From positions 1-38,528 of the forward strand of contig QHNR01000051.1 in NCBI GenBank assembly GCA_003218475.1: 38,528 bases of DNA, given 5' to 3'. Below the pieces are notes generated by a model. The model was given only the letters and a program-made list of their open reading frames with translations. It was not told the DNA's origin and did no database searches. Both the position numbers and the translations under genes were made by a program. Shown here piece after piece: positions 9,327 through 25,086 of the stretch. Numbering within the stretch: the first letter of the stretch is position 1; every line of letters begins with the position of its first letter. The stretch is from Verrucomicrobiota bacterium. Lineage in GTDB: Bacteria > Verrucomicrobiota > Verrucomicrobiia > Chthoniobacterales > UBA10450.

Positions 9327-12300
9327 ATGGCAGAGCTTATTACATCAGTCGCAGATAAGATCGATCGCGCTGTACAGCGGGTGACCCCCTTTGCTTATCG
9401 AGTGCGACGAACCGGCCGACGCTGGATGCGCCGGGCAATGCGCAAGCCTCGCAGCGTTTCCGAGGGGCCAAATCTGTTGCCCTTGTTGATCCAGGTGCTT
9501 GCGAGTTTTACCAAGGCAGACGGGGTCATACTCGAGGAGGAGATCGACTCAAGCCTTGGTTTCCTGCGTTACGACTATCCGGAAGCGGTCTATTCCGAAC
9601 TGCGACAGTTGTTCCGGCAAGCGCTTTACGAGCAACAGGACCTCGCCGCCATGGCTCAAAAACTCGGCGCGCAACTGAGCACCGAACGAAAGATCATGCT
9701 GGGGGTGCAGCTGTACGACCTGATCTCGCAGGCCGGTTTGAAACAGGAACAGGTGGTCGCCTTTTATTCGTTTATGTCGCAGATGGGGATGGCCGCGCAA
9801 GCAATCGACATCGTTTATCAACTCAACGCGTCAGAGGACTCGGACCCATCGATCTATCAGCATGGCGCGTCACCCTTGGAATCGCTGTCCTTCGGTGCCA
9901 ACGGCAAGGCCGATATAATATTCAAGAACCTCAGCGAAATCGATTACCTGATGGCGTTTCGTTATCACGATCTGATTTTGTTGAAAAATTACAGCGGCCA
10001 AAATGTCTCGGTGCGCGGGAGACCATTGGTGCGCGGCGGCTTCTGCCGAATTTATCCTGGCCAGCGCATTTTAGTAGGCGACCAGGTGCTCAGCTACCAG
10101 GAACTGGCGCAGTATTTCAACGCCAAGAAAAACGTTTCGCTTCCACAGATTTTCATCCGCGTGAACAAGGAGTCGGACGAAGTGGAACTGGAACGCTCGC
10201 GAACGCGTGAAAGCGCGCTGCGGGTCACCTTCGGATTGAACGTACGAGTGAAGGCGTTGCGGGATGTGAATGCCGAGCTCAACGGAGTCAGATTGAAAGC
10301 CGGCACACAAGTCGAGGCCACGCTCGAGGACAGGATTGTTTTCCATAACGACAGCGAAATGGATTTGAACGATCTGCGCCGGCGTGCTCGCGCCCTGGGC
10401 GGACGCTTCCAGCTCAAGGCCTCCAAATCGGAATATTTGGTGTCGAACGACCCGAGCCGGCTCGAAGCTGACGATATTTTGCTGTCGCCGGGCACGAGCG
10501 GCGATGTGGTACTGAAGATTTTCTGCGACTACGACCAGCGCGTGGGCGTCCTGGAGGTCATCGAAGCGGATCGGCCGATCATGGTGGGCGACGAGACCGT
10601 GCGTACGACGGCGCAGCTCAAGGACGGCGATACGATTCGAATCGATGTGGGACAGGTTTTGCGGTGCAACTTTTCGGAACGAATCATCGAGGAAGAGCGC
10701 AACATCATTCGCACCCTCGAGGTAAACGAAGTCACGCACCGTTTTGGCAAGGGCGAGATTGGCCTGGAGGGAATCTCGTTTGGCATCACGCGTGGCGAGC
10801 TTGTTTGCGTGATGGGTGCGAGCGGTTCGGGAAAGAGCACGCTGCTGCGAGTGCTTGCCGGTCAGCTGCAGCCAACCAGCGGAGATGTCATCCTCAATGG
10901 CCAGTCGCTCTATCAGAATCTCGACGTCTTGAAGCAGTACGTCAGTTATATGCCCCAGCAGGACGCCTTCGACGAACACCTCACAATCGGTGAGAACCTG
11001 ATGTTTGCGGCGGCGATTCGCGCACCGCACCTCTCACGGCGCGATCGCACCCGGCGCCTCGATGCAAAACTAGTTGAGCTCGGATTGGGCGAACGGCGTG
11101 ATGCGGTCGTCGGCAGCCCGGAGAGCAAAACGCTGAGCGGTGGCGAGCGGAAACGCCTCAACATTGGACTAGATATGATCGGGATCTCCGATGTTTATTT
11201 GTTTGACGAACCGACTTCCGGCCTTTCCTCAAAAGATTCCGAGCACGTCATGGAAATCATTCGAGGCCTGGCGCACAACAAAATCGTCATGGTCACGATT
11301 CACCAGCCCAGCTCGAAACTCTTTCAGATGTTTCACAAAGCGATCCTGCTCGACAAAGGCGGGCGCCTCGTCTTTTTCGGAACTCCGTCAGACATGTTGC
11401 GCTATTTTGCGGAAGCAGAACATCAACATCAGTTCGGGGCCGAATTAGGAGCATGCCCATCATGTGGAACGACCCGGCCAGAATTTATTTTTGATGTGCT
11501 GGAGACGCCACTGCGCGATTTAAGCGGAGATATCATTTACGAGGAAAACAGCCGCGGTCAGCTCGTGGCGTCGCGTCGTTATTCGCCGGAATTCTGGCGC
11601 GACAAGTACGAGGCGTTCCGACTGATTCAGGACGTCAAGCAAGTTTCCCTGCGTCAGGAGCCGGCTAAACCGTTAACGGTCGCACCCGTTCAAAAAAAGC
11701 GGCTGCCAGTCCGCTGGCACGATGAGTGGACGCAGTTTCGCACGCTGTTACGCCGTTCTTTTCTGAGCAAACTGCGCAACAGCGCCAACCTGGTCATTAC
11801 GATTGGGGTTTCGCCCGTGCTCGCGCTGCTGATAGCGACCATCCTGCGCTATTCAGAGAACGGGACATATGATTTCGCTTCTGCCTATCATATCCCGACG
11901 TTTTTATTTCTCGGTCTCATCGTGGCGATGTTTCTTGGCCTGACTAACAGTGCCGACGACATCATCCGGGATCGGCCTGTGCTGCAAAGGGAGCGCAACA
12001 TCAAGGTTCGATTGTCTTACTACGTCATTTCGAAAAGTCTCACGCTTGGGGTGTTTGCCCTTGTTCAGTGCGTCCTGTTTGTTCTGATCGGCAATTCCCT
12101 GCTCCAAATCCGCGGAATGTTCTGGATAGATCTTGGGATCATGTTCATGACCGCGATGAGTGGCGTGGCGCTGGGTCTGCTCGTCTCTTCGCTGGTGGCT
12201 GATCCGAAAACGGCGGCCAATATCGTTCCGCTCGTTTTGATTCCGCAGATCATCATGGGTGGTGCTCTCATCAAATACGAAGACATGAACCGGAACCTTG

Positions 12301-12914
12301 GTCTGCTTTACTCGCTCTCACATTGGATTTCCGAACATCCGAGCACGGACAAAACACTGAAAACCGAGAGCAAACTGCAGGTGCCATTGGTCTGCCAGTT
12401 CATCGCCATGCGCTGGTCGTACGAAGAGATGGTTGTCGCCCAGGCCAAACTAAATCCGCTCACGCGGCGGCAAGATCGGACTAATGATGAAATTCAAAAG
12501 CTCGCGCCCAAAGCGAGCACGGCAGCGCAACGCGGACGTCTCAATGACTTAAAGGACGTCCTGGCATTACTCTCCGGCCTCGAAGCGCATTCCACGACGG
12601 AGATCAATCGTTATCTAAAGCTGGTCGACCCAGTCATCGCCGGGAAACAGAAATTCGATCGGTCGCTCTTCAAGGACGCGAACGGCCCGGTCACTGCCGA
12701 GCAAATCTATGCGAACCAGAAAGTGTCCGACCTGATCTCAAAGGCTGAGATGGAACAAAACGATTATCGCCGAGGCAAAAAACCGAACGTGTTCTTCGGC
12801 CTGCAGACACGTTATTTCGGATTCAAAATTGGCGTGTTTACATTTAACACAGTGGTTCTGCTTGTATCCACACTTGGATTGCTTGTTGGGCTGCTAATTC
12901 GGACCCTTTGTTGA
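9327..12914 (+). CDS. TerB-like/ABC fusion exporter (ABCG-type half-transporter with regulatory N-terminus)
   Basis: A 1195-residue protein. Residues about 48-165 form a helical TerB/DjlA-like domain (LPLLIQVLASFTKADG, later LYDLISQAGL). Residues about 180-455 are beta-rich repeats with VRGRPLVRGGFCRIYPGQRI and IMVGDETVRTTAQLKDGD, resembling FHA-type or small sandwich modules. An ATP-binding cassette follows: Walker A GASGSGKST (497-505), signature LSGGERKR (603-610), Walker B VYLFDEP (623-629), H-loop TIHQPSS. A CPSC pair sits at 710-713. The last part is an ABC-2/ABCG-like membrane domain with about six helices and a long soluble loop (about 1010-1150) before the last helix. It is probably an efflux or envelope-related ABC exporter. 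Substrate unknown. Confidence 0.85.
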   Translation: MAELITSVADKIDRAVQRVTPFAYRVRRTGRRWMRRAMRKPRSVSEGPNLLPLLIQVLASFTKADGVILEEEIDSSLGFLRYDYPEAVYSELRQLFRQALYEQQDLAAMAQKLGAQLSTERKIMLGVQLYDLISQAGLKQEQVVAFYSFMSQMGMAAQAIDIVYQLNASEDSDPSIYQHGASPLESLSFGANGKADIIFKNLSEIDYLMAFRYHDLILLKNYSGQNVSVRGRPLVRGGFCRIYPGQRILVGDQVLSYQELAQYFNAKKNVSLPQIFIRVNKESDEVELERSRTRESALRVTFGLNVRVKALRDVNAELNGVRLKAGTQVEATLEDRIVFHNDSEMDLNDLRRRARALGGRFQLKASKSEYLVSNDPSRLEADDILLSPGTSGDVVLKIFCDYDQRVGVLEVIEADRPIMVGDETVRTTAQLKDGDTIRIDVGQVLRCNFSERIIEEERNIIRTLEVNEVTHRFGKGEIGLEGISFGITRGELVCVMGASGSGKSTLLRVLAGQLQPTSGDVILNGQSLYQNLDVLKQYVSYMPQQDAFDEHLTIGENLMFAAAIRAPHLSRRDRTRRLDAKLVELGLGERRDAVVGSPESKTLSGGERKRLNIGLDMIGISDVYLFDEPTSGLSSKDSEHVMEIIRGLAHNKIVMVTIHQPSSKLFQMFHKAILLDKGGRLVFFGTPSDMLRYFAEAEHQHQFGAELGACPSCGTTRPEFIFDVLETPLRDLSGDIIYEENSRGQLVASRRYSPEFWRDKYEAFRLIQDVKQVSLRQEPAKPLTVAPVQKKRLPVRWHDEWTQFRTLLRRSFLSKLRNSANLVITIGVSPVLALLIATILRYSENGTYDFASAYHIPTFLFLGLIVAMFLGLTNSADDIIRDRPVLQRERNIKVRLSYYVISKSLTLGVFALVQCVLFVLIGNSLLQIRGMFWIDLGIMFMTAMSGVALGLLVSSLVADPKTAANIVPLVLIPQIIMGGALIKYEDMNRNLGLLYSLSHWISEHPSTDKTLKTESKLQVPLVCQFIAMRWSYEEMVVAQAKLNPLTRRQDRTNDEIQKLAPKASTAAQRGRLNDLKDVLALLSGLEAHSTTEINRYLKLVDPVIAGKQKFDRSLFKDANGPVTAEQIYANQKVSDLISKAEMEQNDYRRGKKPNVFFGLQTRYFGFKIGVFTFNTVVLLVSTLGLLVGLLIRTLC

Positions 12915-14446: not shown

Positions 14447-15145
14447 ATGTATTATCCGTACGGTTTCGGTCTCGGATCTCACTGGCTGCTCTACATCGGC
14501 GTGCCATTGATCCTGGGAATTTGGGCGCAGATTCGGGTGACTAGCGCGTTCCGAAAATGGGGCGAGGTGCGGGCGAGCTCGAACATCACCGGTGCGGAGT
14601 GCGCGCAGGAAATTCTGCGGGCGGCCCAAATACAGGATGTGGAAGTTGTAGAGACGAACAATTTTCTTGGAGACCATTATGATCCGAGAGACAAGAAACT
14701 GCACCTGTCGAGCAATGTTTATCATACTCCATCAGTAGCGGCGCTAGGCATCGCCGCGCATGAGACCGGTCACGCCATTCAGCACGCCAGGGCTTACGCG
14801 CCGCTGAAAGCACGAATGGCCATTGTGCCCGTTACGATGATCGCGTCGCAACTGTTGCCGTTCATCATTATCGGCGGCCTTTTCTTTGGGATCACTGGTC
14901 TGATTACGCTTGGGATTTACTGCTATTTAGTCCTGGTGGTTTTCCAATTGATTACGTTACCGGTGGAATTCGATGCTTCACGCCGCGCGAAAATAATTTT
15001 GCGTGAAATGGGAATCGTACAGCCGGGACAGGAAGCTGCCGGTGTGAACAGAGTCTTGAACGCAGCCGCGCTCACTTACGTGGCGGCATTTATCGCTGCA
15101 TTGGGCAACTTGCTGTGGTTAATGTCGCTCCGCGATCGGCGGTGA
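14447..15145 (+). CDS. YugP-like zinc metallopeptidase, membrane-bound
   Basis: A 232-residue membrane protein of the Zn_peptidase_2 (YugP) family. It has an N-terminal membrane helix (about residues 11-29), then the soluble part with the zinc site AAHETGHAIQHA (HETGH, residues 105-109). Two or three further membrane helices follow (about 124-170 and near the C-terminus), with the family marker LPVEFDASRRAKIIL between them. The Bacillus homologue is uncharacterised, and an intramembrane or envelope proteolytic role is assumed. It lies 22 bases before the sigma-factor gene and may be transcribed with it. Confidence 0.85.
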   Translation: MYYPYGFGLGSHWLLYIGVPLILGIWAQIRVTSAFRKWGEVRASSNITGAECAQEILRAAQIQDVEVVETNNFLGDHYDPRDKKLHLSSNVYHTPSVAALGIAAHETGHAIQHARAYAPLKARMAIVPVTMIASQLLPFIIIGGLFFGITGLITLGIYCYLVLVVFQLITLPVEFDASRRAKIILREMGIVQPGQEAAGVNRVLNAAALTYVAAFIAALGNLLWLMSLRDRR

Positions 15146-15167: not shown

Positions 15168-15854
15168 ATGAATTCCTCAGTCGCATTACCTGCTCGCCGG
15201 ATCTCTGATTTGTTGTCGTCCGGTCTCGAAGCTCGTGCTAAATCTAAGCGCGACGCGATGGACCAGCCAAGAACCGACCCGGATCAGGAGTTGGTCAAGC
15301 GCACGCAGGCGGGCGATGCGGGCGCTTTCGACGAGCTAGTCATCAAATACACGCCGCGTCTCTACGGTCTCGTCTATAACATGACCTCGAATCATGAGGA
15401 TACGAACGACCTTTTGCAGGACATTTTCGCCAAAGCCTACAAAGCGATTCGCGGGTTCCGCGGCAAATCGTCCTTTTACACCTGGATTCATTCTATCGCG
15501 GTAAATATGTCACTCAATTTTCTCAAGAAGCGCGGCCGCCGGTTTCAATTGAGTCTGGATGATGTGGACGCGAGCATTCAAAACGACAAGGAATTCCTGG
15601 AACTGACGGCGACGAGTAGTCCGGTGCGCGAAGCGGACCTCTCCGAGCTGCAGCGAAGATTGAACGAGGCCATGATGAAATTGTCTGATGAACACAGAGC
15701 CGTGGTGACCATGTTCCATATTCAGGGGATGCCCCACGCGGAGATCAGTAAAATCTTGCGTGTTTCGGAAGGAACAGTACGTTCCAGGCTCTTCTACGCG
15801 AATCGACAGTTGCAAAATTACCTGGACGAATTTCGGAAAAATCCTGTTTCTTAA
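15168..15854 (+). CDS. ECF-type RNA polymerase sigma factor
   Basis: A 228-residue sigma-70 family protein of ECF type. Region 2 runs from ELVIKYTPRLYGLVYNMT through DTNDLLQDIFAKAYKAI (core binding) to FYTWIHSIAVNMSLNFLKKR (-10 recognition). A variable linker is followed by region 4 with LSDEHRAVVTMFHIQGMPHA and the helix-turn-helix SKILRVSEGTVRSRLFYA. The first 30 residues are not part of the fold, so translation may really start at the internal ATG 15258 (MDQPRTDPDQELVKR). Downstream come a membrane-anchored protein and an HtrA-like protein, the typical arrangement for an envelope-stress sigma factor with its regulators. Confidence 0.85.
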   Translation: MNSSVALPARRISDLLSSGLEARAKSKRDAMDQPRTDPDQELVKRTQAGDAGAFDELVIKYTPRLYGLVYNMTSNHEDTNDLLQDIFAKAYKAIRGFRGKSSFYTWIHSIAVNMSLNFLKKRGRRFQLSLDDVDASIQNDKEFLELTATSSPVREADLSELQRRLNEAMMKLSDEHRAVVTMFHIQGMPHAEISKILRVSEGTVRSRLFYANRQLQNYLDEFRKNPVS

Positions 15855-15866
15855 TCCGCTCTGAAA

Positions 15867-16355
15867 ATGGACGAATTCAACGATAGCGAAATCGCGAGGC
15901 TGCTTCGGTTGAAGCGCTACGAGCAACCGCCGCCTGGATATTTTGAGAATTTCCTGCACGAATTTCATCGCCGGCAGCGCGATGAATTGGTCCGCCAGCC
16001 GCTTTGGCGAATTTGCCTGGAACGCGCTCACAACTTCGTGTGGCAGCTGAATGTGGGTTCTTTGACGTCGTATCCTGCTGCCGTAACGGCGGTCCTGCTT
16101 TGTGCCGCGATAATTTCAATAAAGATTTATCAGCAACCCGAGACGGCTCGCGTCGCTCTCCAGAGTCCGCCAGCCATATCGGTGCCGGCGAGTGCCGAAG
16201 GAGAATGGAACCTTGCGTCTCCGGTCGCCACCCAGATTCTCAGGACGCAGCCGGTTCGCAGTTTTCATGAAAGCGCCCAGACTCACCGAGCCTCCCCCCC
16301 GCGTTACGTGCTCGATAGCGTCCCCGTGAGTTATGAGCCCACTTTCAGATTCTAA
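15867..16355 (+). CDS. Probable membrane-anchored anti-sigma factor
   Basis: A 162-residue protein with a cytoplasm-like N-terminal half (residues 1-70) containing ARLLRLKRYEQPPPGYFENF and a basic helix. One membrane helix at about 74-90 (YPAAVTAVLLCAAIISIKIY) is followed by a 70-residue extracytoplasmic tail rich in Pro, Ser and Ala. No zinc-binding anti-sigma (ZAS) HxxxCxxC motif is present. The assignment rests on position: it begins 12 bases after the sigma-factor stop, has the one-helix topology of anti-sigma factors, and its 3' end overlaps the HtrA-like gene by 23 bases. I cannot recognise it by sequence alone. Confidence 0.55.
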   Translation: MDEFNDSEIARLLRLKRYEQPPPGYFENFLHEFHRRQRDELVRQPLWRICLERAHNFVWQLNVGSLTSYPAAVTAVLLCAAIISIKIYQQPETARVALQSPPAISVPASAEGEWNLASPVATQILRTQPVRSFHESAQTHRASPPRYVLDSVPVSYEPTFRF

Positions 16356-17451
16356 ACGCAGCATAGTTGCACTCGCCCTGATCTTCTGCTCAGGCGGGAG
16401 TTTTCTCTTTGGGCAGGAGAAGTCTGCTACGGCAACTACCGATCAGACGAAAGAGCTCCTTGAGCGTGCTATTGCGCAGGCGGAGTCGACTGCGGCAATC
16501 AGCCATCAGCTCAAAGATGTCTTTCAGCGCGCCGCCAAAGCGGTGGTGAAGATCCATGGCGTCGACGAACACAGCGAAATTTGCGGCACCGGATTTTTCA
16601 TTGACCCGACCGGCACGCTGTACACCGCGTACACGGTTGGAGGCGAAGCGGGAAATTTCACAATCGAATTCGGCGGTAAAAAATATCCGGCGCGCCAGCT
16701 TTTAGCGGACATCCGCAGCGGGACAGCGATGCTAAAAATAGATGCGGCCACGCCGGCCCTGCCCATCGGCAAATCTGAAGAACTGGGAGTCGCGACCCCC
16801 GTCGTGGCGATCGGTTATCCTTTGGATTTGCCGGAAACGCCCAACTGCGGAATGGTCGCAGGATTCGATCGGAAATATCTGGGCCGTTATTTTTCTACCA
16901 CCCACTTGCGTGTGAACCTGCCGACACAACGCGGAGAAGCCGGGGCGCCGCTCTTGAACATGAAAGGCGAGGTCGTTGGCATCGTCGTCAGCAGACTCGA
17001 GAATAACTCGGCGTGTTATGCGGTGCCGGTCGAAGCGGCGGAAAAAATTCGCAGCGATTTTGTTCGTTTCGGTGAAGCCAAACACGGCTGGGTCGGAATC
17101 AATGTTTCGGAGGCCGCTCAACCGGTGGAAGGTTCCCGCGCGGAAATGACCCAGATCATGGATGACACTCCGGCTGCCCGTTCCGGGATCAAGCCCGGGG
17201 ACATTCTCCTACAAGTTGGCCGCAAAAAAGTGACCCAACCAGAAGATGTGCTGGATGCTTCGTTCTTCATTACTGCCGGGGACACCGTCCCGATCACTGT
17301 GATGCGCGGCGATCAAAAACTGACTTTCCACGTGCAGGCCGCTCTTCATCCAGCCAGTCGGACTGGAGTGTTGGTTGCCTCTCCGGGAACGCCTGCGTTG
17401 AATCAGGCAATTCCGCTCTCGCTAGGCTCAGAGGCGCCACGAACGCCGTAG
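16333..17451 (+). CDS. HtrA-like pseudoprotease with PDZ domain
   Basis: A 372-residue secreted or anchored protein with a signal-like segment at residues 9-27. The trypsin-like domain (about 60-240) keeps the fold landmarks but not the catalytic triad: TNYH is replaced by TAYT (His to Thr101), TDLA by SGTA (Asp to Gly130), and GNSGGPL by GEAGAPL (Ser to Ala203). A normal PDZ domain follows (about 255-340) with GWVGINV, AARSGIKPGDILLQVG and VTVMRG-type landmarks. It should bind peptides or unfolded proteins but not cut them. The start lies 23 bases inside the preceding gene, so translational coupling is likely. Together they form a sigma/anti-sigma/sensor-like operon. Confidence 0.8.
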   Translation: MSPLSDSKRSIVALALIFCSGGSFLFGQEKSATATTDQTKELLERAIAQAESTAAISHQLKDVFQRAAKAVVKIHGVDEHSEICGTGFFIDPTGTLYTAYTVGGEAGNFTIEFGGKKYPARQLLADIRSGTAMLKIDAATPALPIGKSEELGVATPVVAIGYPLDLPETPNCGMVAGFDRKYLGRYFSTTHLRVNLPTQRGEAGAPLLNMKGEVVGIVVSRLENNSACYAVPVEAAEKIRSDFVRFGEAKHGWVGINVSEAAQPVEGSRAEMTQIMDDTPAARSGIKPGDILLQVGRKKVTQPEDVLDASFFITAGDTVPITVMRGDQKLTFHVQAALHPASRTGVLVASPGTPALNQAIPLSLGSEAPRTP

Positions 17452-17527: not shown

Positions 17528-19747
<2,220 letters not shown>

Positions 19748-19815
19748 CTAGCATCTTCGGAAAAACCGATCCACCTTTCAATTTTCCGCAAAAACAGCTA
19801 AGCATTTACGAAGTG

Positions 19816-21621
19816 ATGAAACCCGGCGAATGCATCCTCGGGGTCGAAGGCGGCGGCACGAAAACCGGCTGGGTACTCGTGGAAACTGTGGCCGCAGTGG
19901 ATGCAGTGAACTGGGAATTTCACGTCATCAACCAAGGAAAACTGCCCCCATCAAATTTTCGCCTCACGACGCCCGAGCGTCTCCGCGTAATTTTTGCAGA
20001 GCTGCCAAAGCAAATTGATCGCGCCGGAGTTTTCCTTGCCGGTTGCGCCACAGAGGAAGATCGCCGTTCGCTCAAGCAAATCTGTCTCGAGATATGGCCA
20101 AATGCTAAAATCATTACGGGCAGCGACCGCGACTCCGGCCTCGCAGGAGCGCTCGATCATGGAGACGGAATTGTCGTCAACGCTGGAAGCGGTTCATCGG
20201 TCACGGGACGCCGAGGTGAGCGAATCGAAAGAGCCGGCGGGTGGGGACACATCCTGGGCGACGCTGGCGGCGGTTATTTTCTTTCCATTCAGGCGCTTCG
20301 TCTGATCTTGCGCGAGCACGATTTGCATCGCGGTGAGATCAGCTTCGCCGCAAAAATCCTGCACGCGCTGTCCTTAAACAACCTGGATGAACTCGTGCGC
20401 TGGGTGCAAACGGCGGACAAAATGGACATCGCGATGCTCGCCCCGGTGGTGTTTGAAGCCGCGAATGAGGGTGATGCGCGCATGATGGAGATCATTGAAG
20501 AAGGCGCGCGTGTCCTCTGCGAATACACCGAGGCCGTCGCATCGGGTCTGCATTTGCTAGCGCCAAAGGTCGCACTGATTGGCGGCCTGTTTTACCGTGA
20601 CTCGATTTATACGCATGCGTTTCGGCGAAGACTAAAAAAGAACCTGCCTGATGCTCGCGTGGCAGTCGCGGAACGCGCACCTGAGCTTGGGGCGGCATGG
20701 CTCGCATCCGAGCTCTGTGATCACACCGCAGTTCATCCCAAGCTATCGGAGACCGAAATCGACGGTTTGGCTGCCGCTTTAACCGAGCAACGCAACCCTC
20801 GCTCGGAAAATCTGGAAAAAATGAGCGGACGAGAGTTGGTCCAAGTTTTTGTCGAGGAAGAGCAGTTCGTCCAGGCGGCATTGCGCGCGGCGGCTGCCGA
20901 GCTGACCAGGGCCGTTGAAATCGTGGCCGAATCGCTGCGAAATGGCGGCCGGTTGTTTTATGTTGGTGCCGGGAGCAGCGGGCGCATTGGCGTTCTTGAT
21001 GCGAGCGAAATCCCACCGACGTTTGGCGCGCCACGTGAGCTTGTTCAGGGAGTAATCGCGGGCGGGATGACTGCGCTGTCTCGCAGTGCGGAGGGGGCGG
21101 AAGACGACGAAACTGCCGGCGCATTGGCCATGGATGAGCGGCGAATAAAGAATCCCGATGTTGTCATCGGGATTTCGGCCAGCGGCAGAACGCCATTCGT
21201 GCTCGGCGCGCTTGCGCGCGCAAAGCAGTCAAGCGCAAAGACGATTTTGCTCACGTGTAATCCAACTACAGCCGGTGGCGCTGACGCCCGCCAGCCGCGA
21301 TCCCCGATCGCGGCTACAGTTCTCGATCTGGTGATCACGCTCCCAGTTGGGCCGGAAATTCTTACCGGATCAACAAGGTTGAAAGCCGGTACCGCGACAA
21401 AGGTTGCGCTCAACATCATTAGTACCGGCGCTATGATTGCGCTTGGTAAAGTGCGCGGCAATTTGATGGTGGATCTGCATACCACTAGCGCGAAGCTGCG
21501 CGATCGCGCCGTGCGCGTGGTGGCTAAGCTGACCCAATGCGATTACAGTTCCGCACGCGAAAAACTCGAAGCGAACGAGTGGAATCTTCGTAGAATCATA
21601 GGCGGAATGGACAAAAAATAG
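19816..21621 (+). CDS. murQ: Fusion of BadF/BadG-type amino-sugar kinase and MurNAc-6-P etherase (MurQ)
   Basis: A 601-residue protein made of two enzymes. Residues 1-300 are an ASKHA kinase of the BadF/N-acetylglucosamine kinase type: phosphate loop GVEGGGTKTGW, then VVNAGSGSSVTG and GGWGHILGDAGGG. Residues about 305-601 are MurQ: NPRSENLEKMS, the SIS domain with YVGAGSSGRIGVLDASEIPP (catalytic Glu398), EGAEDDE, ISASGRTP and LTGSTRLKAGT. MurQ cleaves the lactyl ether of MurNAc-6-phosphate to GlcNAc-6-phosphate. A kinase joined to it would supply MurNAc-6-P, as MurK does in Clostridium, for peptidoglycan recycling. A 12-residue insertion lies at 484-495. ATG 19816 is where the kinase fold starts. 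Confidence 0.9.
   Translation: MKPGECILGVEGGGTKTGWVLVETVAAVDAVNWEFHVINQGKLPPSNFRLTTPERLRVIFAELPKQIDRAGVFLAGCATEEDRRSLKQICLEIWPNAKIITGSDRDSGLAGALDHGDGIVVNAGSGSSVTGRRGERIERAGGWGHILGDAGGGYFLSIQALRLILREHDLHRGEISFAAKILHALSLNNLDELVRWVQTADKMDIAMLAPVVFEAANEGDARMMEIIEEGARVLCEYTEAVASGLHLLAPKVALIGGLFYRDSIYTHAFRRRLKKNLPDARVAVAERAPELGAAWLASELCDHTAVHPKLSETEIDGLAAALTEQRNPRSENLEKMSGRELVQVFVEEEQFVQAALRAAAAELTRAVEIVAESLRNGGRLFYVGAGSSGRIGVLDASEIPPTFGAPRELVQGVIAGGMTALSRSAEGAEDDETAGALAMDERRIKNPDVVIGISASGRTPFVLGALARAKQSSAKTILLTCNPTTAGGADARQPRSPIAATVLDLVITLPVGPEILTGSTRLKAGTATKVALNIISTGAMIALGKVRGNLMVDLHTTSAKLRDRAVRVVAKLTQCDYSSAREKLEANEWNLRRIIGGMDKK
21265..21315 (+). repeat. Repeat-like in-frame insertion inside murQ
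   Basis: MurQ proteins normally read CNPxSPIA at this point; here 12 extra codons (21265-21300, TTAGGADARQPR) separate CNP from SPIA. The inserted DNA leads into a perfect 10-bp hairpin, AGCCGCGATC (21293-21302) with GATCGCGGCT (21306-21315), and contains a second small stem, GGCG-CTGA-CGCC. CTACAG flanks the segment on both sides as a direct repeat. It looks like a small palindromic element inserted without breaking the frame. Confidence 0.5.
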
Positions 21622-21951: not shown

Positions 21952-22173
21952 ATGAAACCAGCCGGCATTGTCGGCATCATTCTGATCGTTGTCGGCCTCA
22001 TAGGCTTTGCTTGGGGCGGTTTGGGTTGGACGACGCAAAAGAAAGACGCCCAGCTGGGCCCACTTGAGATCACGCACAAGGAGAGTCACGGGATCGCTTT
22101 TCCGCCGATCGCGAGTGGGATCTGTCTCGTCGGCGGAATAATCCTGGTAGTATTCGGCAGCCAAAAAAGCTAG
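21952..22173 (+). CDS. Small two-TM protein, DUF3185-like
   Basis: A 73-residue protein with two membrane helices (about 5-27 and 52-70) separated by a polar loop containing KKDAQLGPLEITHKES. GIILIVVGLIGFAWGGLGW and a second Gly-rich helix (ASGICLVGGIILVVFG) match the DUF3185 layout. The stop codon overlaps the stop of the convergent HtrA gene by four bases (CTAG). It is likely co-transcribed with the Lmo0937-type gene before it. Function unknown. Confidence 0.7.
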   Translation: MKPAGIVGIILIVVGLIGFAWGGLGWTTQKKDAQLGPLEITHKESHGIAFPPIASGICLVGGIILVVFGSQKS

Positions 22174-23642
22174 CCACCCGCCTTTAGCACGGCAAAAGTT
22201 TTCGTGCCTTTGCGGTCGAGATACAGGAGCACGCCGCGCTTAGGATCGGCCTTGTTGAGCGCATCGCGGAATGATTGTACGTTCGTCACCGGTTTGCCGT
22301 CCACTTCGGTAATGACGTCTTCGCGCTGGATGTCCTGCGCCGCAGCAATGCTATTGTCCTCCACATCCGTTACAATCACTCCTTTTTCAGTCGGAAGCTT
22401 CAAGCGTTTCGCAACCTCCTCCGTCAATTCCTGCACTTGCAATCCAAACTTGCCGACATTTTCCTGTGACGGTTGCCGCGGCTGGGTCGGCAAAGTATTT
22501 GACGCTCGCGCGATCTCGCTAGGTAATTCGCCAAGTTTGATAGGGACTTTGATCGTTTGGCCTTTGCGCCAAACGGCAAGTTGGACATTTTGGCCGATTT
22601 TCTTTTTCAGGATCTCGTGCTGAAGCTGTGAGTCTGTTTCGATCGGTGTTCCGTCTATCTGGGTGATTACGTCGAACGGCTTCAAGTCGCTTTTGGACGC
22701 AGGCGCATCAGCTTCGATCGTGCGCACCACCACTCCTTTATCGGCGCCCTTAAACAAATCCCGAATCGTTGGATCGTCACCGAGCGTTTCGATCCGAATG
22801 CCCAGCCACGGACGCATGATTTTATGGCCGGCGACCAATTCGGCGCCGATTTCTTTCGCCATGTTGATTGGAATTGCAAACCCCAGTCCCCGGTTCATGC
22901 CATTGATCAGCGTGTTCATCCCAATCACCTTGCCATCGATGTCGCACAGCGGTCCGCCGCTGTTACCCGGGTTAATTGAGGCATCGGTCTGCAGATAATC
23001 TGAGATCGAATAGCCGCCTGTCTGAAACAATTTGCTCCGGCTTTTGCCGCTGATTACTCCATAGGTAAACGTGTAGTCGAGCTTGAATGGTGCGCCGATT
23101 GCAAACGCAAATTGCCCAACCCGCACACCATCGCTGTCCCCAAGCTGGACTACTGGCAGATCTTTCGCGTCGATTTTAATGACGGCGATATCGGTTTTCT
23201 CGTCCGTACCCACCACCGTCGCTGAAAAATTCCGCCCGTCTCTTAGCTTGACGTCGATTTTATCTGCGCCTTCTACCACGTGAAAGTTTGTGAAAATGTA
23301 GCCATTGGGCCGCACGATAAAACCAGAGCCTTCGCTTTGGACCGGACGCGGCCCGCCGGGATTTCGGCGTGGATTGTTTTCATCGGGCGGCCCCTGAAAG
23401 AACAGGTCGTCGAGCGGCGAGGTCTCGCTCAGGTCGTTCTTCTTGGAAACCTCAATAATGACCACGCTCGGCGCGACAGTTTCGAAGACTTTGGCGAAAG
23501 CGTCGTTTAATTGGTGAACGACGTCCTTGCCAGCTTCCGCCCGGAAATCATCCGGCGGAACAGTGGAATTCGGGGCGACCTCAGGTTGCGCCGCAAACGA
23601 TGTACTCAGTGCAACGCACAGGGTAAAAATGGACAAACGCAT
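22170..23642 (-). CDS. htrA: HtrA/DegP (Do) family serine protease, catalytically intact
   Basis: A 490-residue periplasmic protease-chaperone. A signal peptide (MRLSIFTLCVALSTSFA) precedes a trypsin-like domain with the full triad: His121 in TNFHVVEGA, Asp151 in KTDIAVIKID, Ser228 in NPGNSGGPL. Two PDZ domains follow, with DAPASKSDLKPFDVITQIDG and a second ending EVDGKPVTNVQSFRDAL. It degrades or refolds damaged envelope proteins. I chose ATG 23642, which opens directly into the signal peptide; an upstream TTG at 23681 would add 13 residues. It contrasts with the triad-less HtrA-like gene at 16.3 kb. Confidence 0.93.
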   Translation of the reverse strand: MRLSIFTLCVALSTSFAAQPEVAPNSTVPPDDFRAEAGKDVVHQLNDAFAKVFETVAPSVVIIEVSKKNDLSETSPLDDLFFQGPPDENNPRRNPGGPRPVQSEGSGFIVRPNGYIFTNFHVVEGADKIDVKLRDGRNFSATVVGTDEKTDIAVIKIDAKDLPVVQLGDSDGVRVGQFAFAIGAPFKLDYTFTYGVISGKSRSKLFQTGGYSISDYLQTDASINPGNSGGPLCDIDGKVIGMNTLINGMNRGLGFAIPINMAKEIGAELVAGHKIMRPWLGIRIETLGDDPTIRDLFKGADKGVVVRTIEADAPASKSDLKPFDVITQIDGTPIETDSQLQHEILKKKIGQNVQLAVWRKGQTIKVPIKLGELPSEIARASNTLPTQPRQPSQENVGKFGLQVQELTEEVAKRLKLPTEKGVIVTDVEDNSIAAAQDIQREDVITEVDGKPVTNVQSFRDALNKADPKRGVLLYLDRKGTKTFAVLKAGG

Positions 23643-23787
23643 GGGCTGGAATTTGGACAGCAGGGAACATGCAACGTTCAACTGGCTGCGTCCAATCCCG
23701 GCTTACTCGAAGTCGGGCTCGCGCTTCCGTCGGAGTTATACGACATTTGTTGACGAAGCTCGTATAATTCCCAGTCCAACCCTGCAT

Positions 23788-25086
23788 ATGCACGCGTTCA
23801 AGAGGCGAGTCATCTTCCCGGCAGGCGTTACAATTTTGATTTTGGTCCTTTTGTGGGCAATGGCCATTGGGCCGGAACCTCCTGCGCGCGTCACAATCTC
23901 GCCGGAAGAACTCGTGCGGGCTGTCACGATTCAGCGCGATTCCCTTATCGACTTGTGCCTGATCGAGCGCGTCGACCCAAACGGGCGTGATGCGCAGGGG
24001 CGCACGCCGCTGCTGATCGCCACGTCTCAGCAAAATTGGAAAACGGCTCAACGACTGCTTGACGTCGGGGCGCTGGTCGATGTTGCCGATAAGAATGGCT
24101 TTACGCCGCTGATGGCAGCAGCGATGCACGGAAACCCAGCAAAGTTCAGACTGCTTCTGGAGCGTTCAACGAAGCTTCGCCCCGAAGTTCCGTGCGCGGA
24201 CGGGCAAGACCTTTTGGGCTTTGCTCTCGACGGCGGCGATCAGGAGATCATCAACACTGTGATGGAGCGCTTACCACCAGCGCCGCAGTGGACAAGCAGT
24301 ACGCGACGTGCTCTGACCGCAGCCCTCCAAGCCGGGAAAAAGGAGCAAATCCGATTGCTTCTTGGAAAACATTCAGCGCCTCCGACACCTGAGGGGAAGA
24401 AGGTGCCGTTTCTTGCCTACTCCATTGCGGGAAACAACTCCTCTCTTTTCAGCACGCTTTTGGCTTGTGGAGCCGACCCTAACACGGTTCTGCCCTCTCA
24501 ATCTGACAAGGATTTTCTGGCTATGCTCTCGTCGAAAGGGCTTCGCAGCTACGTGGAAGAAGACAGGAACATCACCGTCGCGATGCTTGCCGCCGGGCTT
24601 GGACAGGATGACTACCTGCGCGGTCTGATCGACGCAGGTGCCAACCGGAGCCGATTGACGAGTCGAAACAAAATGTCGGCGTTGGATATTGCCGCTGAAA
24701 CGGGCCACTGGCGTGCTGCACAAATTCTTCTTGGCGGCGGACCATCGCCGGATCGCTTGCGCCTCGAAATTTCTCTCGGATTGCAACGCGTCGCTCTCTT
24801 TAAGAACGGCGTGCCGGTGTATCGCACGCAATGCTCGACTGGGCGACCGGGTTATTCGACGAAAAGGGGCGAATTTGTGATCACCAACAAGGAACGAAAT
24901 CATCGTTCCACGATCTACCACGTAGACATGCCGTATTTCATGCGCCTGAGCTGTCTTGATTTTGGAATGCACGCGGGCTACGTGCCGAATCATCCGGCAT
25001 CCCACGGCTGCATTCGTTTGCCAGAAGACGCTGCTCGCAAATTCTTCTCGGAAATTCCGGTCGGCACACTTGTGACCGTGCAATAA
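23788..25086 (+). CDS. Ankyrin-repeat/L,D-transpeptidase (YkuD) fusion
   Basis: A 432-residue protein. A membrane or signal helix (about 9-27) is followed by about 280 residues of ankyrin-type repeats (GRTPLLIATSQQNWKTAQRL, NGFTPLMAAAMHGN, later MSALDIAAETGHWRAAQIL). Residues about 325-432 are a YkuD catalytic domain with the conserved His395 in MHAGYVP and the active-site SHGCIRLP (Cys408). L,D-transpeptidases make 3-3 peptidoglycan cross-links or attach lipoproteins to the wall. The ankyrin part would sit in the periplasm and could dock partner proteins. The gene is divergent from htrA, with 145 bases between start codons. A 14-bp palindrome, CAGGCAATTGCCTG, follows at 25092-25105. Confidence 0.88.
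   Translation: MHAFKRRVIFPAGVTILILVLLWAMAIGPEPPARVTISPEELVRAVTIQRDSLIDLCLIERVDPNGRDAQGRTPLLIATSQQNWKTAQRLLDVGALVDVADKNGFTPLMAAAMHGNPAKFRLLLERSTKLRPEVPCADGQDLLGFALDGGDQEIINTVMERLPPAPQWTSSTRRALTAALQAGKKEQIRLLLGKHSAPPTPEGKKVPFLAYSIAGNNSSLFSTLLACGADPNTVLPSQSDKDFLAMLSSKGLRSYVEEDRNITVAMLAAGLGQDDYLRGLIDAGANRSRLTSRNKMSALDIAAETGHWRAAQILLGGGPSPDRLRLEISLGLQRVALFKNGVPVYRTQCSTGRPGYSTKRGEFVITNKERNHRSTIYHVDMPYFMRLSCLDFGMHAGYVPNHPASHGCIRLPEDAARKFFSEIPVGTLVTVQ

Follow-up and report, generated by a model that had tools for sequence, protein, structure and literature searches.

Organization of the sigma factor operon

The window analysed here, a stretch of 38,528 nucleotides, belongs to a draft genome of 3.16 Mb in 195 contigs that is 83% complete, so that absences from this genome are soft. 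Its closest relatives with a name are soil genomes of Verrucomicrobia, Candidatus Udaeobacter among them, in the order Chthoniobacterales. Open reading frames and Pfam matches placed three tightly packed genes at positions 15168-17451. The first encodes an ECF sigma factor, the second a membrane protein that spans the bilayer once, and the third an HtrA-PDZ protein. The preliminary description of this DNA had reported the same three frames, and the overlap between the second and third genes measured exactly 23 bases. The features of the operon and of the two peptidase genes nearby are listed below.

14447-15145, plus strand: YugP-like zinc peptidase with an HETGH motif, immediately preceding the sigma factor gene
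15168..15854, plus strand: ECF sigma factor, 228 aa, RpoE-like (Pfam and NCBIfam matches; adjacent in nearly all order and class loci)
15867..16355, plus strand: anti-sigma-like protein, 162 aa (AF2 model; conserved LLRLKRYEQPPPGYF and tail)
16302..16352, plus strand: C-terminus of the anti-sigma protein, with the tail RYVLDSVPVSYEPTFRF-COOH as a proposed ligand of the PDZ domain (conservation; the window protein ends FRF)
16333..16355, plus strand: 23 bases shared by the 3′ end of the anti-sigma gene and the 5′ end of the HtrA-like gene (direct reading)
16333..17451, plus strand: HtrA-like pseudoprotease, 372 aa, carrying an export signal and a single PDZ domain (Pfam Trypsin_2 and PDZ_2)
16633..16635, plus strand: codon for Thr101, which takes the place of the catalytic His (alignment; His absent in every operon homologue aligned)
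16720..16722, plus strand: codon for Gly130, which takes the place of the catalytic Asp (alignment; Gly throughout the order alignment)
16939..16941, plus strand: codon for Ala203, which takes the place of the catalytic Ser (alignment; Ala, Gly and others in homologues)
17080..17340, plus strand: PDZ domain with an HGWVGI motif resembling a carboxylate-binding loop (PDZ_2 at residues 255-334)
22170-23681, minus strand: active DegP-like HtrA with two PDZ domains and intact FHVV, TDIAV and GNSGG (sequence motifs)

The first protein matched only sigma-70 regions 2 and 4 in Pfam, as expected of an ECF factor, and scored 115 bits against the sigma70-ECF model TIGR02937 (cut-off 43) while falling under the RpoE equivalog cut-off; a grouping for it within the ECF classification may already exist. 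Upstream of the sigma factor gene, a shared ECF-type promoter motif showed no convincing excess over reversed controls. The 23-base overlap was kept by the majority of order loci but not throughout the class, several lineages having no gene overlap (among them loci L059, L060 and L071), and the fixed stoichiometry that had been read from it is possible. Elsewhere in the window, sequence reading pointed to what appears to be a BadF/NagK-type sugar kinase fused to a MurQ-like SIS domain (19591-21621, plus strand) and to an ankyrin-repeat-like protein whose C-terminal stretch resembles an L,D-transpeptidase (SHGCIRLP; 23527-25086, plus strand), and Pfam identified an ABC transporter of 1195 residues with a TerB-like N-terminal part and an ABC-2 membrane domain (9327-12914, plus strand).

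The HtrA-like protein has lost the catalytic triad

The third protein belongs to the HtrA/DegP/DegS fold on the evidence of its Pfam domains and of PDB sequence matches at E 1e-31. A model of its orthologue at L060 superposed on DegQ with a Z of 32.7 and on DegS with about 29, and its structural neighbours included DegS structures solved with bound YQF and YRF peptides. The protein scored below the cut-offs of the family models, with 134 bits for degP_htrA_DO against a cut-off of 416, and 83 and 95 bits for the two DegS equivalog models against cut-offs of 423 and 408. The preliminary description had found His, Asp and Ser replaced by Thr101, Gly130 and Ala203, and alignment both with DegP, DegQ and DegS chains and with the family confirmed all three changes. 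Among operon homologues, the His position holds Thr, Ser, Ala, Asp, Leu, Asn and others, never His; the Asp position is always Gly in the order except at L089, which is a match and not an orthologue, and is Asn, Gly, Ser, Arg or Cys elsewhere in the class; and Ser is kept only at L060 and L150-L154, all six of which lack both His and Asp. No operon homologue with an intact triad was found.

The protein has nevertheless been retained. The dN/dS of the HtrA-like gene against family members was about 0.06-0.11, indicating strong purifying selection on a dead HtrA-like protein, and within the order G252, W253 and G255 of the PDZ loop are invariant or nearly so. In a tree of HtrA sequences, one branch with support 98/98 separated all of the pseudo-HtrAs from the active HtrAs of the genome, which is consistent with a single, ancient loss of the triad, while long branches leave the finer placement unsure. 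In one family (f15, L197-L201), the protease half of the pseudo-HtrA is largely eroded and the PDZ half is retained; the tails of the paired anti-sigma proteins there end in EF or EM, with Met in two loci.

The operon is conserved across the order and the class

The HtrA-like protein was used to search 98 genomes, namely its own and those of relatives, giving a match in 97 and a close orthologue in most. Within Chthoniobacterales, nearly all loci with enough flanking sequence had the genes for the sigma factor, the anti-sigma-like protein and the HtrA-like protein one after another, spanning a dozen families; at the level of the class the arrangement recurred in another 40 loci, which represent about 20 families. 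Together, about 117 loci in over 30 families of Chthoniobacterales and the surrounding class combine this gene order with a dead triad. The same gene order occurs at one outlying locus from another part of the phylum, whose anti-sigma protein ends in YSF; two genomes of 0.9 Mb, together with a few genera, lack the operon. The three genes form a conserved unit: their order and the lost triad recur across order and class, and with the low dN/dS this puts the arrangement far outside what chance would give. Neither outcome that the preliminary description would have taken as refutation, an intact triad in homologues of the operon or a gene order confined to this genome, was observed.

The distribution of the neighbouring peptidases differs. 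The YugP-like protein had been suggested to supply the missing cleavage, and its HETGH-bearing gene lies directly upstream of the sigma factor gene throughout the family of the window and in two other loci of the order; it was not found upstream of the sigma factor gene in the remaining families of the order. With this distribution it cannot serve as the protease of such operons in general and was rejected as a core partner, and we consider it very unlikely that it cuts the anti-sigma protein. The active two-PDZ HtrA lies about 5 kb from the operon, a spacing that is repeated in 15 or more genomes of the family. Besides the pseudo-HtrA, the genome has nine Trypsin_2 matches, of which no fewer than seven carry the Ser motif, and an RseP-like M50 protease. 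The MucB_RseB family (PF03888) had no match in this 83% complete genome, with a positive E. coli control.

The active HtrA bears on an adaptor reading, in which the pseudo-HtrA would bind the anti-sigma tail and deliver it to an active HtrA, by hetero-oligomer or hand-over, and so promote cutting. MamO, a dead HtrA-like protein, activates proteolysis by MamE (PMC4794232), and many genomes of the family have the active gene in a similar position; outside this family, however, it was not seen as a fixed neighbour. We regard the adaptor reading as a minority possibility, though one to be taken seriously.

The membrane protein is a putative anti-sigma factor

The middle gene matched no Pfam or NCBIfam family, and a fold search of the PDB with its AF2 model (pLDDT 63) returned no match. 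The model consists of a three-helix N-terminal part (residues 6-60), a membrane helix (69-87), a disordered periplasmic linker and the conserved tail. In the alignment of the middle genes, the N-terminal cytoplasmic part and the C-terminus are conserved and the linker is variable. Operon position and topology are the grounds on which we assign the protein as a putative anti-sigma factor.

The putative anti-sigma protein ends in a conserved tail

The C-terminus of the window protein, YVLDSVPVSYEPTFRF, follows a hyperconserved order consensus, RYVLDxxPVSYExxFxF-COOH. The last residue is Phe in all 77 loci of the order, and residue -2 is Phe, Leu or Tyr in 66 of them. Outside the order, all 40 class loci with an HtrA gene end in Phe or Tyr. 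Where homologues have no HtrA gene within reach, 4 of 15 end in Phe and the others in Lys, Arg, Gln, Asn or Pro. Counted by family, a Phe or Tyr end was found in 22/22 with the HtrA gene versus 2/10 without (Fisher p 4e-6, a value that ignores shared ancestry). Four homologues (L192, L193, L202 and L203) have no nearby HtrA gene, yet end in Phe. The tail pattern matched a single place in the genome of the window, and none of the 21 long non-overlapping ORFs of the window ends in Phe.

Part of the tail lies within the overlap, and its conservation might be a by-product of nucleotide constraint from the start codon of the HtrA-like gene. In most loci the ATG of the next gene falls within TAT GAG, the codons for Tyr-Glu in the tail, and nucleotide constraint may be the cause of these two residues. 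The terminal Phe, in contrast, is encoded by TTC in 39 loci and TTT in 38, and this even use of both codons contradicts the overlap as its explanation. All three stop codons occur after it, RYVLD sits upstream of the overlap, and the tail with its terminal Phe persists where the genes do not overlap (for example L059, L060 and L071) and in the class. As an account of the whole tail, nucleotide constraint is thus highly improbable.

The form of the tail suggests a ligand for a PDZ domain. The PDZ pockets of DegS and AlgW take large aromatic residues at positions 0 and -2, as in YQF and WVF (PMC8545111). All five outer-membrane proteins detected in the genome carry hydrophobic-x-Phe ends (YQF, FAF, YSF, FAF and FHF), so that the putative anti-sigma protein, judged by its sequence, ends like the proteins whose mis-assembly sigma-E systems watch.

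Docking of the tail was not seen in a prediction of the two proteins fused at L060, in which the HtrA part reached pLDDT 97-98 and the tail remained undocked at 42-46. The fusion is a natural read-through with TAG as Gly and has almost no alignment depth. An internal tail with no free carboxylate and a thin alignment make this a weak test, which still does not support binding. By-eye inspection of the class alignment for covariation between the tail and the PDZ loop gave no clear pattern.

Target genes often sit inside ECF operons, and the HtrA-like protein could be a chaperone under control of the sigma factor with no part in signalling, while the tail would serve some other partner, such as a PDZ protein of the RseP type or an active HtrA. 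Inactive HtrAs keep chaperone activity (PMC11642142), and the undocked tail in the fused prediction agrees with such a role. Against it, the tail motif tracks the presence of the HtrA gene across families, and the order and overlap of the genes are conserved. A role as chaperone only appears improbable to us, the more so given that tracking. The preliminary description had suggested a sensor or scaffold. We still prefer this reading, for which the conserved tail now provides a specific candidate ligand, with the fused prediction as a weak result on the other side.

Proposed mechanism

We propose that the operon encodes an envelope-stress switch in which the pseudo-HtrA acts as a PDZ sensor that does not cut. 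The single-span anti-sigma protein would hold the ECF sigma factor at the membrane, and the PDZ domain of the co-expressed pseudo-HtrA, perhaps together with its dead cleft, would bind the hydrophobic-x-Phe-COOH periplasmic end and cap the anti-sigma protein. When assembly of outer-membrane proteins fails, their like tails would compete for the PDZ domain and the cap would depart. The uncapped anti-sigma protein would then be destroyed by separate active proteases, a true HtrA followed by the RseP-like M50 protease, and the sigma factor would be freed. We put the chance that this sensor reading holds for the operon at about even. Its extension to the whole class, as a competition switch in which the anti-sigma protein mimics the C-terminus of an outer-membrane protein, is held by the PDZ domain of a dead HtrA and is displaced by real tails, seems plausible to us but falls somewhat short of that. 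The sequences themselves show the gene order, the lost triad, the purifying selection, the conserved tail and its association with the HtrA gene, and the like form of the outer-membrane-protein ends in this genome. Binding of the tail, the competition, the anti-sigma function and the identity of the cutting enzymes are the inferred steps. The presence of an RseP-like M50 protease, with no RseB family match, fits the proposal; the undocked tail, the Phe ends of four homologues that lack the HtrA gene, the Met ends in two f15 loci and the failure to find a common promoter motif speak against it. The proposal suggests that a dead protease senses envelope damage through release of a brake, without cutting.

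Comparison with known systems

A search of the open-access literature found no description of such a system. Its parts come from known families, and their combination is a new variation on sigma-E. MamO of magnetotactic bacteria is likewise an HtrA/trypsin-like pseudoprotease whose active site has degenerated and whose function is conserved, but it works in magnetosome formation, through metal binding and MamE activation, and has no sigma/anti-sigma context. RseB and MucB offer a parallel for a non-cutting periplasmic cap that leaves the anti-sigma factor upon a stress signal, as proposed here, whereas the HtrA-PDZ fold of the pseudo-HtrA is unrelated to theirs.

The sigma-E pathway is the textbook HtrA pathway, in which misfolded outer-membrane proteins are sensed by PDZ binding, followed by cutting. 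Like the sigma-E/RseA/DegS/RseP system of E. coli and the AlgU/MucA/AlgW system of P. aeruginosa, the present operon combines an ECF sigma factor, a single-span anti-sigma protein and an HtrA protein with one PDZ domain, and it shares with them the hydrophobic-x-Phe class of ligand (binding being predicted here) and an RseP-like M50 protease in the genome. Unlike in those systems, the HtrA protein is catalytically dead, is encoded in the same operon and, to judge from its signal region, is probably soluble and not membrane-anchored; the outer-membrane-protein-like tail is carried by the anti-sigma protein itself, and the RseB family was not found. A whole bacterial class, including soil relatives of Candidatus Udaeobacter, seems to have kept the sensing half of the pathway and dropped the cutting half, which would be a case in nature of sensing parted from cutting, with the ligand mimic built into the anti-sigma protein.
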